This document shows positions 16,296 through 24,611 of a DNA stretch of 54,863 nt, piece by piece (within the stretch, counting starts at the first letter, position 1; each line of letters starts with the position of its first letter). Origin of the DNA: Bacillota bacterium (GTDB lineage: Bacteria > Bacillota > Clostridia > Saccharofermentanales > Fastidiosipilaceae); NCBI GenBank assembly GCA_030057555.1, contig JASGUU010000066.1:1-54863 (forward strand), read 5' to 3'. The position numbers and the translations under genes are program-made. The notes under the pieces are model-generated. The model saw only the letters and a program-made list of their open reading frames with translations, ran no database searches and was not told the DNA's origin.

Positions 16296-16579
16296 GCAGT
16301 TTTTCAAGGTTCCGCGCGAAAACGGTGCGGAAGGTTGAATTTCTGCACATTTTCAGGGCGTTATGGGCAGTTTTTCAAGGTTCCGCACGAAAACGGTGCG
16401 GAAGGTTGAATTTCTGCACATTTCCAGGGCGTTATGTGCAGTTTTTCAAGGTTCCGCACGAAAACGGTGCGGAAGGTTGAAATTCTGCACATTTCCAGGG
16501 CGTTATGGGCAGTTTTTCAAGGTTCCGCGCGATAATAGTGCGGAAGGTTGAAATTTTGCACGTTCTCGGAGTTTCACGT
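16296..16579 (+). repeat. Four tandem copies of a 71-bp hairpin repeat
   Basis: Copies begin at 16296, 16367, 16438 and 16509. Each holds an 8-bp stem TTCCGCAC/GTGCGGAA around a 7-base loop (GAAAACG in the better copies), then a spacer with TTCTGCACATTT and GGGCGTTATG. The last copy is diverged and runs into a second hairpin at 16565-16592 (CTCGGAGTTT/AAACTCCGAG). Open frames across the array only reflect the repeats. It lies between the convergent MATE and sulfatase genes. I see no other copy in the window. The rest of 16107-16295 is empty. Confidence 0.9.
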
Positions 16580-18603: not shown

Positions 18604-21021
18604 TTAATCAAGCAGGGCGAGCAGCTGCTCTGTGGAGAGACTTCCCCCCGAGTCCTTACCCTCAATGAGACGGGAAAAGAGCTCGCGTTTCTCCTGCTGC
18701 AGCTCTTCAACCTTCGACTCGATGGTGTCAGAACAGATCAGGCGATAACAGGTGACGCTGTTTCGCTGCCCGAAGCGATGGGCGCGATCGGCAGCCTGCT
18801 CCTCGACCGCCGGATTCCACCAGGGATCGTAGAGTATGACCGCCTCGGCTGAAGTCAGATTGAGGCCGACCCCACCTGCACGCAGGCTGATCAGAAACAC
18901 GGGAATCTCCGGATCCGTCTGGAAACTGTCGATCTGGCGCTGGCGGTCTTTTGTCCTCCCGTCCAGCCGGGCACAGGCCCAGCCATGCTCCGCACAGACG
19001 GCCGCCAGCAGATCCAGCATGCGCACAAACTGGCTGAAAATAAGCACTTTCTTCCCCTCCGCAATGAGGGCCGCTACAAGAGCGGTACAGACGCTGAGTT
19101 TGCCCGACGCGCGCGCCCCCGGCCGCAGCAGTGCCGGATGATCGCAGATCTGGCGCAGGCGGGTCAGGGCCTCTATCACAAGCATGCGCCGCCTCGGCAG
19201 ATTTGCCGCTTCCGGCCCCTGGCGCAGCTGCTGCCGCGCCCGCTCGCGCACCCGCTCGTAGAGCTGCAGCTGCTCCAGATTGAGTTCGACATGGATCGTC
19301 TCATCCAGGCGTGGCGGCAGTTCCGGCAGGACATCCGCCTTGCGCCGCCTCAGCATGAAGGGGCGGATGCGCTGATGGAGGCGGGCGGCAGAGCAGGCAT
19401 TTAGTGTGCTCGGGAAGCGCTCCGTAAACTCACGGTGGCTGCCCAGCCAGCCCGGCAGCACGAGAGCAAAAGCCGCCCAGAGATCCTGAGGACGATTCTC
19501 GAGCGGCGTACCGGAGAGAATCAGCCTGACAGGGACAGAACAACGGCGCAGGGCCCGGAAAAGCCTGGTTCGGGGATTGCGCGCGATCTGCCCCTCATCC
19601 AGCACCAGCAGACCCCATGCGTGTTTGGCAATTTCAAGCTCATCGCGCAGATAAATCGGATAGGAGGTGATGACGAGGTCCATCTCCGCCGCCTCGCGCC
19701 AGCGCTGTTCGCGCAGCTGTGGCGGACCGGTTACGGTCAGGGTTGCGAGCTCGGGAACAAAACGGCGGCTCTCACGCAACCAGTTGTGGACGAGGCTTTT
19801 AGGGCAAAGAAGCAAAGCCGGACGACCGCCTCCAGTCTCTGCCCGTCGGTGAACCAGAGCGACCAGCAGCTGCAGAGTCTTCCCCAGACCCATCTCGTCA
19901 GCCAGAACACCGCCGAGGCCGTATTCAGCCAGGGTAAGCAGCCAGCTGACGCCGCGCTCCTGATAGGGACGCAGCGTGTAACCGCCCTCTTTGCTGTCGT
20001 AGCGCCCGTCGACCGGAGCCAGCGATGTCACCAGCGCCTCCAGCTTTGCGAGCGCCTCGGCGGGCGGCGCCGTTTCCGGCACGGCCCAGTCCGCCACTTC
20101 ACCCTCTTCAGGGGGCTCCTCCGCCTCCTCTGGATGACTGCCGGCCGGCGGCTGCCTCAGCGAGCGCTCCAGCTGTTCACGACTTCCAAGCTCCGTAAAG
20201 GCCAGAGGGTCCCAGAGTTCCGTTTCCGTAACAAAAACGGCTGACTCCGGCCGGTGCTGGCGGGCATAGCGCCCGGCATCAAAGTCGAGAAAGTCATAGC
20301 CCGTGCTCTCAAAGGGCTGGAAGCTGGCCTGGCGGCTAGTCTCCTCCCCTCCCACACCAGGATCGTAGAAAAGACGCCAGTCCGGCGGCAGCGCAGGCAG
20401 GACTTCCTCAAGGAGGTATACCCGGCCCACATGGTCCGCGAAGCTTAGATAACCCGGGCGCTGCAGTGCCACCGCCCTCCAGGCCAGCGTGAGCCGCTCG
20501 ACCTCAGACAGACACCGTGCGGCCTCCGTGCCGGCGAGCTCGCGCCGCAGCGCAGTCAGGCTCTTTCGTCCCGCGGCGGAGAGCGGATCGCAGCTCGTCC
20601 AGGGCAGCGTCGGATCCGGACGGTAATCGACGCGCAGCAGCAGGGCAATCTCATCCAGCAGGCGATAAGAACGCAGATAGAGGCGGATCTGGATCTGCTC
20701 CGTCCCCGAATCCTGTGGCAGGCAGGCGATGCAGGCGGCGGCCAGATGACGGCAGGCCACGCGGCGGCAGTCGCAGGAGCTGTCCGGGCGCAACAGACCT
20801 TCGGCCCCGATATGGCAGGCCGTCAGGCAGGGACGCAGGGCCTGGATTTCGGCCCGCAACGCATAGCCGTCAGCCGTCGTCCGGAAATCCAGCAGACGGA
20901 CAAGCCCGTTCTGTACATAGGCGAGACCGCGCTGCCAGCTCTGCTCGCTGAACTGACTGCGCAGCCGATCGCTGATCGCCGCAGGCAGCATCCTTCGCGA
21001 TTTCCTCCTTCTGCGCCACAT
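18604..21021 (-). CDS. SNF2-family DEAD/DEAH helicase-like ATPase with SWIM zinc finger
   Basis: Predicted DNA-translocating ATPase of 805 residues. An N-terminal SWIM finger (CDCRRVACRH, about residues 78-90) is followed by a linker, then the SNF2 core: motif I DEMGLGKT near 380, motif II DEGQ near 475, motif III LSGTPLENR, and motif VI ADRAHRFGQ near 747. All helicase motifs look intact. It is transcribed divergently from the three-gene ATPase operon starting at 21255, with 233 bases between starts. SWIM-SNF2 proteins are widespread in Bacillota without a firm role; some defence systems use SNF2 proteins. A partner role with the neighbouring BREX-like ATPases is inference. Confidence 0.92.
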   Translation of the reverse strand: MWRRRRKSRRMLPAAISDRLRSQFSEQSWQRGLAYVQNGLVRLLDFRTTADGYALRAEIQALRPCLTACHIGAEGLLRPDSSCDCRRVACRHLAAACIACLPQDSGTEQIQIRLYLRSYRLLDEIALLLRVDYRPDPTLPWTSCDPLSAAGRKSLTALRRELAGTEAARCLSEVERLTLAWRAVALQRPGYLSFADHVGRVYLLEEVLPALPPDWRLFYDPGVGGEETSRQASFQPFESTGYDFLDFDAGRYARQHRPESAVFVTETELWDPLAFTELGSREQLERSLRQPPAGSHPEEAEEPPEEGEVADWAVPETAPPAEALAKLEALVTSLAPVDGRYDSKEGGYTLRPYQERGVSWLLTLAEYGLGGVLADEMGLGKTLQLLVALVHRRAETGGGRPALLLCPKSLVHNWLRESRRFVPELATLTVTGPPQLREQRWREAAEMDLVITSYPIYLRDELEIAKHAWGLLVLDEGQIARNPRTRLFRALRRCSVPVRLILSGTPLENRPQDLWAAFALVLPGWLGSHREFTERFPSTLNACSAARLHQRIRPFMLRRRKADVLPELPPRLDETIHVELNLEQLQLYERVRERARQQLRQGPEAANLPRRRMLVIEALTRLRQICDHPALLRPGARASGKLSVCTALVAALIAEGKKVLIFSQFVRMLDLLAAVCAEHGWACARLDGRTKDRQRQIDSFQTDPEIPVFLISLRAGGVGLNLTSAEAVILYDPWWNPAVEEQAADRAHRFGQRNSVTCYRLICSDTIESKVEELQQEKRELFSRLIEGKDSGGSLSTEQLLALLD

Positions 21022-21254
21022 CTGCCTGTTCTACGATACCCCAGCCCTGACCCGGAGAGCAAAGGCGCTGAACACAGGCATTGTCTGTCGTAACGATCCA
21101 GGCCGCCCAACATGCTTGCCGCGCTCCGTCATTCCTGCTGTGAACTGTCCGTAACAGCCACTGCAGAGATATCAAAGCGGCTTTATTCATGTTACGATTT
21201 CATAACATAAACAACCGTGACGGCGGTTGACAAAATGATCTCGAGGTAACGGAA

Positions 21255-22070
21255 ATGTCTGAACAACGGGGAGATGTGGCGGCACTGTTGACAGGTGAGA
21301 TTGATGCTTTGCGCAAAAACTGGCAGAACATGCGGCAGAGCATGGGAAGCTGGGATCTCAGGCGTCTCGAGCTGAGCCGCTCGCGCATCATCCCGATTGT
21401 CGCCGAACTCGCGGACCACTGGCAGCTTTTCGCCACCGAGGCAGCCGCTGAGGAAGCCAGAATCCGCGAAACCCTCGCCTCGCCTGACTACGCTGCCGCG
21501 CTTGAGATGGCACTGGAAGCCGCCGGTGTCCCCTTCAGCGGCGACTTCCCCGAATACATGCTTCCACCCTACAAGCTCACCATCCAGACAGAGACGGGCG
21601 AAGCCCGCCTCTCGCTTGGCCGGCGCAGCGAGCGCAGCAGCGAGCTTGAACCCGGGACACTCGCCGACTGGGTGCGCGCACGCTACCAGTGCGTCACTTC
21701 GCGGCGCTTCAACGCCAATGCCCTGATGCGTGACCTGCTCGACTGCTACCGCATGGGCGTCGCCATCCAGTACCCGGAGCAGGTACGCGAAGAAATGCAA
21801 AGGCCGGCTGACCGCGCCGGTCTGGCTGTGCCGCTGCAGCTGATCTACCAGCTGTTGACTCTGCGCGCCACGAGCCGTCAGGAGTATCCGCGGCAGTTTT
21901 TCCTCTACGACCTCGGCCTGCTCACGGAGCTGCCGGAACTCGTCTATCGTGACTACCGCTTCGAGCTCGGCTTCGCCCGCAATCAGGGAGTGGCGATGGT
22001 CATCGTGGACAGCCAGGGGCGCGAACATCGCTTCAGCAGCCTGACGGTGCATAAAGAGGCTGCGGAATGA
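21255..22070 (+). CDS. Protein of unknown function, first gene of ATPase operon
   Basis: I do not recognise this 271-residue protein. It has no signal peptide or membrane segment. The first 100 residues are helical and charged. Around 100-140 there is a basic strand-rich segment (LSLGRRSERSSEL), and the C-terminal third contains LYDLGLLTELPELVYRDYRF. An ATG with AGGTAACGGAA upstream starts it; the stop overlaps the next gene by four bases, so it is coupled to the two ATPases. It may be an adaptor or DNA-binding subunit of that module. Confidence 0.8.
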   Translation: MSEQRGDVAALLTGEIDALRKNWQNMRQSMGSWDLRRLELSRSRIIPIVAELADHWQLFATEAAAEEARIRETLASPDYAAALEMALEAAGVPFSGDFPEYMLPPYKLTIQTETGEARLSLGRRSERSSELEPGTLADWVRARYQCVTSRRFNANALMRDLLDCYRMGVAIQYPEQVREEMQRPADRAGLAVPLQLIYQLLTLRATSRQEYPRQFFLYDLGLLTELPELVYRDYRFELGFARNQGVAMVIVDSQGREHRFSSLTVHKEAAE

Positions 22071-23335
22071 GACTTGTCTACGAAGACCTGAACCGGCTGC
22101 GGGCCGGCGAGGCACCCACCAACCTCGAGCTGATCCGTGACATGACCCTGGGCGCGGAGGTCTGGCACGATCGCTTCGTGAACTACTATCTCGACAGCTT
22201 TATCGCGGCCGGGGGCTCAAAGGTCAAGCTGCTTACAGGCGACACAGGCTGCGGGAAGTCACACGCTCTGCGCTACCTCCAGCTCGCCGCTCTGGAACGC
22301 GACTACACAACCATTCATCTCTCGCTCGCCGATGACCTGGGTCATAAGCTCAGCCAGCTGCCCCAGCTTTACCGCAGCATGATCGGCTTTATTGACCTCG
22401 ATGAACTGCAGCGGGGTCTCGCGCTGCGGATTGCCGAGCGCCTCGGCTACAGACCGCCGGTCTATAACGGCACGGAGCCGCTGCTGCCCTATGTCATGGA
22501 CACCGAGGGCAGCAATCGTTCCGACGCCATGCGGGAAATTCGCATCGCCATCAACCGCAGTCTGCGGGATGCGGATCTCGCGCCTTCGGTGCAGACCTTT
22601 GCCCAGACTTTGTGCAAAGACCGACTCATCGAGAGCGATCCCGAGCAGATGAATTTCGCCACCCGCTGGTTCCGCGGCGAGCGCCTCAACATGGCCGAGC
22701 GCCGCGAATCAGGCCTCTTCGATACGCTGCGGCGGCCGACCGCCCGACGCTGGCTGACCTCCCTGATCCAGCTGCTGCGCCTGTCGGGGCGGACGGGCCT
22801 CGTACTCCTCATCGACGACCTCGACGTACTGATGGAGCGCGTCCCCGATACCAACCGCTTCCGCTACACGGCTGCCAATATCAAGGACACCTACGAGCTC
22901 TTCCGCCAGCTCATCGATGATGCCGACACGCTGCCGCACCTGATGGTCCTGCTGGCCGGCCACCGCAGCCTGCTCGAGAACGAACAGCGCGGCCTGCGCA
23001 GCTACGAGGCGCTCTGGATGCGCCTGCAGACGGGACTCGTCCCCTCGGTCCGCTTCAACGGCCTCGCGGATGTCGTGAACCTCGATCTGCTCCATGCCGA
23101 ACTCGGAGCCGACTTCCCCGAGCGGCTGGGACGGCATCTCGAGAATGTTTTCGAGCGCAATCGTCTGCGCCTGCAGATGCGCGATGCCCGTTTTGATGCA
23201 CGGGCGGGCCAGACCGCGGTACCGCCTCCGGTGCAAAGCGATCTGCGCGGCGTCATCATCGGCAGCATGCTGGCGGCGGGCGGCGAGCGTCCGACCCTGG
23301 CCCGCACCGGAGCAGGAGAGATCGACCATGAATAG
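22067..23335 (+). CDS. BrxC/BrxD-like P-loop ATPase (first of two)
   Basis: Predicted P-loop ATPase of 422 residues. Walker A is GDTGCGKSHALR near residues 58-70 and Walker B is LVLLIDDLDVL near 243-254, preceded by a regular alternation of strands and helices of the AAA/STAND type. The layout (glycine loop, long helical insert, LDVL acidic motif, VLLAGHRSLL sensor-like strand) resembles the DUF2791 BREX ATP-binding family. Starts and stops overlap both neighbours (ATGA with the gene before, eight bases with the gene after). No PglZ, methyltransferase or BrxL lies nearby, so it is not a standard BREX locus. Confidence 0.78.
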   Translation: MRLVYEDLNRLRAGEAPTNLELIRDMTLGAEVWHDRFVNYYLDSFIAAGGSKVKLLTGDTGCGKSHALRYLQLAALERDYTTIHLSLADDLGHKLSQLPQLYRSMIGFIDLDELQRGLALRIAERLGYRPPVYNGTEPLLPYVMDTEGSNRSDAMREIRIAINRSLRDADLAPSVQTFAQTLCKDRLIESDPEQMNFATRWFRGERLNMAERRESGLFDTLRRPTARRWLTSLIQLLRLSGRTGLVLLIDDLDVLMERVPDTNRFRYTAANIKDTYELFRQLIDDADTLPHLMVLLAGHRSLLENEQRGLRSYEALWMRLQTGLVPSVRFNGLADVVNLDLLHAELGADFPERLGRHLENVFERNRLRLQMRDARFDARAGQTAVPPPVQSDLRGVIIGSMLAAGGERPTLARTGAGEIDHE

Positions 23336-24611
23336 AGCCGTCGCCAGTCCCCACAGCATTGACGCCCTCTTCGTCATTGAGTCGCTGCGCTCGGGCATCC
23401 CGACCAGACGTTCAACGCGTGAACTGCCCGATCTGCGCCAGGAGATCTCCGGGCGTATCCTGCACGATCTCGAACAGTTCGAGCAGGATCAGTATCCGCC
23501 CGGCCGCATTCTCTGGGGCCAGTACGGCCAGGGAAAGACCCATGCGCTGGCCGCGATCGAACACCAGGCGCTCGACCGTAACTTCGCCGTCTCCCGTGTC
23601 ACGCTGAGCCGCGAAATCTCCTGTCACAACCTGATGGACTTTTACAGCGAGGCCGCGGGCAAGCTGCGGACGCCCGATTCCAGCATCGACGGCCTGGCCC
23701 GCTATCTCGAGCGCCTCGGGCTCGATAATGTCCGCCGCTCCGTCATCTTCTCCCCGGACCGCTATGTCCACAATCTGCCGGTCCTGTGCCTCGAAGCCTA
23801 CCTGCTGGCCGCCGGCGAGAACCGCGAGAAGCTCTATGCGGACCTGATGGGCACGAGGCTGCCGGCGGGTGAGTTCCGCAGCATCTATCGTCAGGTCTGC
23901 GGTGAGCGGTTGCCGGCTTTGCGTTTTCGCATTCATGAACATGCCTATGCCTATTTCTCCATGATGGCCGACCTGATTCAGCTCTGCGGTTTCGAGGGCT
24001 GGGTCATCCTGATCGACGAGGCCGAGCTCATCGGGCGTCTGGGACGCATCAGCCGCATGCGCGCCTATCAGAACCTCGGCTGGCTGCTGGGCTGGGCGAG
24101 CGGCTCGAAACCCGGAGCGATCTACACGATCGCCGCAGCGGCCAGCCGGCTGCAGGATGACCTGTGGTACGGTGGTCGCTATGTTGACCGCGACAACATG
24201 CCGCAGCTGGCAGCCGAACGGGCGGGTGAGGCGAAGGCGCACGAGGCCGAACATGATATGCGCGTCTTTTTCCGGCGCGCCATCGGCCGCGATTCACTCG
24301 TCGCGACGCCGGCGAAGCACAGTGCGCTGGTCGCCCTGCTGGAGGAAATCACCAGGCTCCACGGTATCGCCTATGACTGGGAGGCCAACTTCGATGTCGA
24401 GCGGCTGCTGAAGCATCTCGGCACACAGCCTGTGCGCACCTATATCCGCGCGACACTCGAACACCTCGACCTGGAAATGCTCTATCACGAGGACAGTCTC
24501 CCCGATGCGGATGTCCTCGCCGAACATATCCTCGGCGGTGACGGGGCGGATGAGGCGGAGGATGCGGAGCCTGACGAGGCGGATGAAGAACCTGGCGGGA
24601 ACCAGTTCTGA
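23328..24611 (+). CDS. BrxD-like P-loop ATPase (second of two)
   Basis: Predicted ATPase of 427 residues. The start pattern, in which a conserved arginine-rich segment leads to GRILWGQYGQGKTHAL (about 57-72), and the following VSRVTLSRE strand are characteristic of BREX ATP-binding proteins (BrxD/DUF2791). Walker B is WVILIDEAELI near 225-235. The C-terminal tail (about 405-427) is highly acidic. ATG 23328 has AGGAGAG upstream and overlaps the previous stop by eight bases. It is more confidently BrxD-like than its upstream neighbour; together they may form a hetero-oligomer. Confidence 0.85.
   Translation: MNRAVASPHSIDALFVIESLRSGIPTRRSTRELPDLRQEISGRILHDLEQFEQDQYPPGRILWGQYGQGKTHALAAIEHQALDRNFAVSRVTLSREISCHNLMDFYSEAAGKLRTPDSSIDGLARYLERLGLDNVRRSVIFSPDRYVHNLPVLCLEAYLLAAGENREKLYADLMGTRLPAGEFRSIYRQVCGERLPALRFRIHEHAYAYFSMMADLIQLCGFEGWVILIDEAELIGRLGRISRMRAYQNLGWLLGWASGSKPGAIYTIAAAASRLQDDLWYGGRYVDRDNMPQLAAERAGEAKAHEAEHDMRVFFRRAIGRDSLVATPAKHSALVALLEEITRLHGIAYDWEANFDVERLLKHLGTQPVRTYIRATLEHLDLEMLYHEDSLPDADVLAEHILGGDGADEAEDAEPDEADEEPGGNQF

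Follow-up and report, generated by a model that had tools for sequence, protein, structure and literature searches.

What is the role of a 271-residue protein that is encoded directly ahead of two ATPase genes in a clostridial genome? The gene lies in a contig of 54,863 nucleotides (JASGUU010000066.1, assembly GCA_030057555.1) from a Bacillota bacterium of the Fastidiosipilaceae, and this whole stretch of DNA is hereafter called the window. The gene, A, is the first of three consecutive genes (A, B and C, the trio) and is preceded by a divergent helicase gene, D:

18604..21021, minus strand: gene D, 805 aa, SNF2 helicase with a SWIM-type zinc motif (PF00176, E 1.8e-60; CxC..CxH)
21183..21214, no strand: inverted repeat between D and A, with 15-base arms that are 80% complementary
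21255..22070, plus strand: gene A, ATG to TGA, 271 codons and 271 aa, recognized from its open reading frame, ribosome-binding-type motif, conserved family and linkage
22067..23335, plus strand: gene B, 422 aa, BrxC_BrxD-family AAA+ ATPase, starting inside the stop of gene A
22238..22261, plus strand: P-loop of B, GDTGCGKS, intact in the window, located by sequence alignment
23328..24611, plus strand: gene C, 427 aa, BrxC_BrxD-family AAA+ ATPase, starting 8 bases inside B
23517..23540, plus strand: P-loop of C, GQYGQGKT, located by sequence alignment

The ATG of gene A is preceded by a ribosome-binding-type motif (GAGG, 21243-21246), and its stop has four bases, ATGA, in common with the start of gene B (ATG at 22067), the overlap that a preliminary description of this DNA had reported. 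A copy that is 87% identical is present in a sister species (another genome of the genus), relatives with 25-43% identity occur in Bacillota of other families, and the most distant relatives, with only 16-20% identity, retain the invariant residues P105 and Y211. The sister copy and the residues held invariant at such distances show that A is not a chance open reading frame. The protein had been described as belonging to no recognized family, and this was confirmed. In Pfam, PADLOC and NCBIfam the window protein matched nothing above cut-off, its best Pfam value (0.024, HTH_46) falling under the cut-off of that model, and no family was retrieved when 20 relatives were compared with Pfam, NCBIfam and PHROGs or when 75 relatives were compared with PADLOC and Pfam, the only matches being sporadic chance hits that each involved one to three of the relatives. 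Judged from sequence, A is a real protein family outside the Pfam, NCBIfam, PADLOC and PHROG models. Annotation with Pfam, NCBIfam or PADLOC currently misses the module, because none of the three contains an entry for this family.

The linkage of A to the ATPase genes was evaluated in two sets of loci, 20 obtained from relatives of A and 80 from relatives of C. All 84 scored loci, in which each of the three was scorable as a single gene and among which about 10 contigs are counted twice, had the genes in the order A-B-C on the same strand, with intervals or overlaps that were mostly short. Gene A was present at 71 of the 80 loci found via C; of the nine that lack it, six lie on contigs that end before A, two (L097 and L098) lack both A and the 5' part of B, and at the last (L091) C stands by itself. 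Gene A occurs in about 18 of the 398 Bacillota genomes sampled (4-5%), and no intact A without B and C was seen in any of them. Trios were also found in Cyanobacteriota, Spirochaetota, Cloacimonadota, Atribacteria, Coprothermobacterota and Armatimonadetes, with hosts that include Sporomusa acidovorans, Thermosyntropha lipolytica, Ammonifex thiophilus, Pelotomaculum propionicicum, Sphaerochaeta halotolerans, and Phormidesmis priestleyi and other cyanobacteria. One genome (G230) holds two highly divergent A-B-C modules (L025 and L041), one resembling the clade of the window and one from the other main clade. On the strength of this linkage, A is almost certainly a dedicated partner of B and C. 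The coupling to a pair of DUF2791-type ATPases, first noticed in the window alone, was thus recovered as a very strong linkage when distant homologs were sought in other genomes, and no match to a general-purpose family emerged.

The predicted structure of A consists of three parts:

21258..21479, plus strand: A residues 2-75, long helical (coiled-coil) hairpin in the AlphaFold2 prediction, pLDDT mostly about 90
21480..21707, plus strand: A residues 76-151, alpha-beta5-alpha domain in the AlphaFold2 predictions (whole and C-terminal models)
21708..22067, plus strand: A residues 152-271, winged helix in the AlphaFold2 predictions (whole and C-terminal models)

The AlphaFold2 model of the whole protein, generated with the family alignment, is folded (pLDDT 88.3), in line with the earlier view of a genuine soluble protein. 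Because the full-length model returned only coiled-coil look-alikes among PDB folds, the C-terminal part was modeled alone (pLDDT 90.6, pTM 0.82), and a Foldseek search of this part against the PDB and viral models produced nothing with E <=0.001. A sequence search of the PDB matched mostly designed helical bundles, via the hairpin, and these were set aside. In a second-look structural alignment, the top match of the alpha-beta5-alpha domain was CapZ (Z 7.5 over 72 residues), a value within background, and the predicted winged helix (H1 154-172, H2 194-207, H3 213-224, wing 234-251) aligned with the winged helices of Orc1, Orc4, Orc5, Cdc6 and RctB with Z values of 4.7-6.4. RctB is a plasmid-type initiator. 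The alignment of the modeled winged helix with the Orc/Cdc6 proteins is weak, falls below a trustworthy level and is suggestive only.

Whether the winged helix contacts DNA can be approached through its conserved residues. Basic residues (lysine or arginine) are conserved among relatives of A at positions 242 (92%), 208 and 222 (both 84%) and 246 (70%), yet the net charge of the domain is low, averaging +1.9 in relatives and reaching -2 in the window protein. Given a conserved basic turn and wing in a domain of low charge, we go no further than to call DNA binding by A possible. The low charge speaks for an alternative in which A serves as a scaffold without any contact with DNA and its winged helix is a protein-protein module, in the manner of KITE subunits in SMC complexes. 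This explanation is also favored by the conserved helix 213-224, which is hydrophobic and acidic, and by the appearance of a Smc5/6 KITE-type chain among the weak alignments of the winged helix, and it is opposed by the basic wing and turn residues kept in most relatives. We regard it as a serious contender of somewhat less than even probability.

Other features of the locus bear on a simpler role. The intergenic region between D and A spans 233 bases, and the inverted repeat it contains sits inside a block (21166-21214) that is near-unchanged in the sister species, the rest of the region having diverged. The repeat may be an operator or promoter element, and a promoter scan gave matches no better than chance. 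A could then be a mere transcriptional regulator of its own operon that acts on the upstream repeat, a proposal in keeping with its winged helix, its place as first gene of the operon and the conservation of the repeat. However, regulators are usually swapped across lineages, whereas A keeps the same place over several phyla and is co-translated with B, and a simple repressor would hardly have a long hairpin and an alpha/beta domain like those of A. We consider a purely regulatory role highly improbable. Another repeated element of the window lies between a MATE-type transporter gene and a sulfatase-like gene (16296-16561), where about 3.7 copies of a 71-base tandem unit carry an internal inverted repeat (TTCCGCAC...GTGCGGAA).

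The two ATPases are related to known machinery. Both are members of the BrxC_BrxD family, which we take to be the former DUF2791, scoring 92.9 bits (B) and 70 bits (C) against PF10923, for which the Pfam cut-off is 22.2, and they are the only matches to this family in the genome of the window. Profile searches with B matched PF10923 (E 2.7e-26), BrxD (E 1.4e-21) and SngB (E 4.3e-18), and those with C matched PF10923 (E 2.3e-19) and SngB (E 3.6e-10). Both fall far under the NCBIfam cut-off of 350 bits for the BrxD equivalog NF033438 (B 77 bits, C 46 bits). Matches to initiator and loader ATPases are only partial, ORC-CDC6-like for B in Pfam and to DnaA and DnaI chains in the PDB. At the level of sequence, B and C resemble initiator and loader ATPases of the Orc/Cdc6-DnaA-BrxD kind.

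The ATPase motifs of the two proteins follow different patterns. In C, an intact P-loop and a Walker B motif reading DE were both invariant in ten sequences, and the few losses of its ATPase motifs occur in poor or divergent loci. In B, the Walker B motif reads DD in the window and is DE in none of the 30 aligned sequences, DD, DN or DQ being the usual forms, and the P-loop is lost in L039, L086, L093 and L100, among others. Residues E277, R280 and R319 of B are nevertheless invariant in the aligned sequences. The pattern suggests a hetero-oligomeric AAA+ complex with one type of working site and one regulatory subunit, as in ORC.

Is the trio then a known system under another guise? In Type 2 BREX, the Orc/Cdc6-type ATPase BrxD and the helicase BrxHI form a tight dyad, in which BrxD has been suggested to act as the loader of BrxHI (PMC12839542). 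The two systems share a stand-alone Orc/Cdc6-type PF10923 ATPase beside a superfamily-2 helicase, and both B and C match BrxD profiles; the trio module differs in having two ATPases, subunit A and other helicase families. No match to PglZ was found in the genome of the window, which is 96% complete, in a search for which control genomes were positive, and no conserved methyltransferase of the BrxX/PglX kind was present among the open reading frames around the trio or its recurrent neighbors. In the absence of PglZ from the genome, the trio module is not BREX. Shango, an anti-phage system, joins a TerB protein, an ATPase and a helicase (PMC10250203), and its three-gene logic (SngABC) of a small protein, a BrxD-like ATPase and a helicase is comparable, the SngB profile matching both B and C and an SNF2 helicase adjoining the trio in the window. 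However, Shango has one ATPase where the trio has two, and its first protein is TerB-like, whereas the TerB models of Pfam and PADLOC matched neither A nor its 75 relatives. A TerB_N search of the genome of the window was also negative, control genomes being likewise silent. Without a TerB match, the module does not look like Shango.

BrxC offers a third comparison, since it carries winged helices and a coiled coil behind an Orc-type ATPase, with an alpha+beta domain (PMC12839542, PMC13326643). These are the same kinds of parts as in B or C plus A, although in BrxC all of them belong to one chain of about 1200 residues. The BrxC profile was touched by one of the 75 relatives of A, with E 0.048, and this single match does not establish homology between A and BrxC. 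Among the papers surveyed, none described a stand-alone system under the name DUF2791 or BrxC_BrxD.

The part of the locus that varies is the gene beside the trio. Neighbor clustering and Pfam scans revealed four kinds of recurrent motor neighbors: SNF2 helicases; ResIII/DEAD superfamily-2 helicases of about 550 aa, usually upstream and divergent; downstream SF1 helicases, about 860 aa long and bearing a topoisomerase-type zinc ribbon; and BrxL, also downstream. Among 81 complete loci (79 scored loci, L042 and the window), the neighbor was ResIII in 24, SF1 in 9, SNF2 in 8 and BrxL in 4, and none was seen in 36 (about 44%), some of which lie on short contigs; a fifth BrxL adjoins a truncated copy of the trio (L076). 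When mapped on the tree of C, which was built by a quick method and has some weak deep branches, motor labels were far more clustered than in shuffles, with SF1 forming one clade and the other kinds requiring two (ResIII), at least four (SNF2) and two (BrxL) changes. SNF2 and BrxL neighbors have therefore each been acquired more than once. SNF2 genes are divergent and upstream in the window, L042, L044, L045 and L046, convergent and downstream in L086, and co-directional and downstream in L039 and L040. The preliminary description had held A to be the part most likely to define the specificity of the module, a claim that the comparison does not support, because A is constant across lineages and the neighboring motor is what varies.

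Three further observations concern the surroundings of the trio. A gene of about 190 aa lies between C and the SNF2 helicase in L039 (11858-12418) and L040 (12898-13479), and its L039 copy had no Pfam match. In L065 (3983-9854), the trio is directly 5' of a CRISPR-Cas gene set that includes a Cas_TM1802-type protein and a Cas3-type helicase. In a Peptococcaceae clade, a helix-turn-helix gene of about 350-420 aa, possibly a regulator, is found just upstream of A (L024 8985-10058, L025 10461-11717, L026 10758-11798).

The chance that an SNF2 gene adjoins a random gene was estimated at about 0.2%, taking the three SNF2-domain matches in the 2.9 Mb genome of the window and assuming about 2900 genes, and SNF2 genes adjoin 8 of the 81 trios. 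Furthermore, in genome G344 shortened pieces of C, B and ResIII lie side by side (L143, 885-2488), a decayed copy of the whole unit, and genome G267 contains an orphan, truncated ResIII gene. Recurrence in several lineages and geometries, SNF2 adjacency above chance and joint decay in G344 together point to the neighboring motor as a functional partner in several lineages, though not an obligatory one. In the window this partner is probably D, which is upstream of and divergent from A, and the sister species keeps the trio with an SNF2 gene. The N-terminal region of D, used as a query against 398 genomes, matched D alone, and the SNF2 N-termini of L046, L086, L039 and L040 do not match it; because the region evolves fast, the search says little about partner specificity.

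The loci without a motor call for an alternative in which the trio is a self-sufficient sensor NTPase complex, a defense core of BREX-like or STAND-like kind, and the motors are add-on effectors or separate systems. The 36 complete loci without a nearby motor gene are in its favor, as is the fact that the trio is the only constant part of the locus. The SF1 helicase was not found in trans in most of the helicase-less genomes examined, weak matches occurring in G230 only, which likewise favors this alternative. However, the neighbors found in several separate lineages and geometries are always DNA motors, and the motor gene decayed together with B and C in G344. We judge a self-sufficient core unlikely and favor a trio that works with motors.

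Orc-like ATPases that serve a helicase could operate with identical biochemistry in defense or in a housekeeping or stress role such as DNA repair or replication restart. A housekeeping role would fit a module that is chromosomal, no relatives of C having been found in plasmid, phage or IMG/VR viral collections, that is kept with an SNF2 gene in the sister species and that in the window is surrounded by genes which look like housekeeping genes. It would also fit the lack of a clear excess of defense genes nearby: PADLOC matched Cas1, Cas6, a methyltransferase, PDC and mad2/mad3 among 110 genes near the trio and a few among 96 far genes, in a table without protein counts that permits no firm claim of enrichment. 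These surroundings weaken the case for defense. That case is favored by the patchy occurrence of the trio in the sampled Bacillota, its decayed copies, the two divergent copies in G230, the relatedness of B and C to BrxD of BREX and SngB of Shango, and the pairing with BrxL, all of which are less readily accommodated by a housekeeping role. On balance, the role would lean slightly toward defense rather than repair, and a housekeeping role appears rather unlikely.

From what was computed directly, namely the conserved trio, the recurrent and exchangeable motor neighbors, the ATPase motif pattern and the predicted fold of A, we infer that A, B and C quite probably form one complex. In the mechanism that we propose, B and C would form an Orc-like ring or arc, and A would be a dedicated third subunit, whose helical hairpin, alpha/beta domain and winged helix are missing from stand-alone ATPases of the BrxD type. 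C would be the subunit that hydrolyzes ATP; B would be mainly structural and regulatory and may lend arginines to the site of C. Binding of ATP by C would close the complex on DNA, or on a particular state of DNA, and the complex would then hand over, place or license a DNA motor with its gene beside the trio or at another locus; this motor would be the SNF2 helicase D in the window and a ResIII/DEAD SF2 helicase, an SF1 helicase or the MCM-like BrxL in other lineages. The likely purpose would be to police or process DNA that is foreign or damaged.

The loading or licensing step is supported by the A-B-C order in all scored loci, the recurrent motors, the joint decay in G344 and the motif pattern of B and C, and it is weakened by the motor-less loci, the untrustworthy Orc/Cdc6 fold match and the weakly basic winged helix; we give it an even chance. 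Since the alternatives discussed above deny different steps of the mechanism, the confidences assigned to them overlap. Taken as a whole, our best reading, held at about even confidence, is that an Orc/BrxD-like complex of A, B and C has the task of placing or licensing a DNA motor, which is exchangeable, and likely polices foreign or damaged DNA.

A further parallel is the loading of MCM by Orc/Cdc6 in archaea and eukaryotes. Like that machinery, the trio has AAA+ ATPases that resemble the initiator type, with one degenerate type of subunit, and a predicted winged-helix element, and some trio lineages have an MCM-like partner, BrxL. In contrast, the predicted winged helix of the trio is on a separate protein, and its partners are mostly SF1 and SF2 helicases and not hexameric rings. 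The likeness is one of logic, and not of established membership. Within BREX, likenesses of BrxL to MCM and of BrxC to ORC have been described, together with a proposal that BrxL is loaded onto DNA (PMC10164562).

The Orc-MCM-like loading proposed for BREX (PMC10164562) concerns systems that are large, and how BrxC, BrxD and BrxL cooperate is an open question in that field. The trio, accompanied in some versions by BrxL alone, is much smaller, and the loading model could be tested in it. We advance only tentatively the narrower idea of a minimal Orc-like loader of bacteria that is divided among three proteins, a separate winged-helix subunit (A), a degenerate ATPase (B) and an active ATPase (C), and that works with whichever motor the lineage supplies. 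If true, the split loader would represent a stripped-down form of the Orc-MCM-like logic of BREX, without a methyltransferase or PglZ. A three-gene core that stands near different motors in different lineages suggests a transferable machine for putting motors onto DNA.
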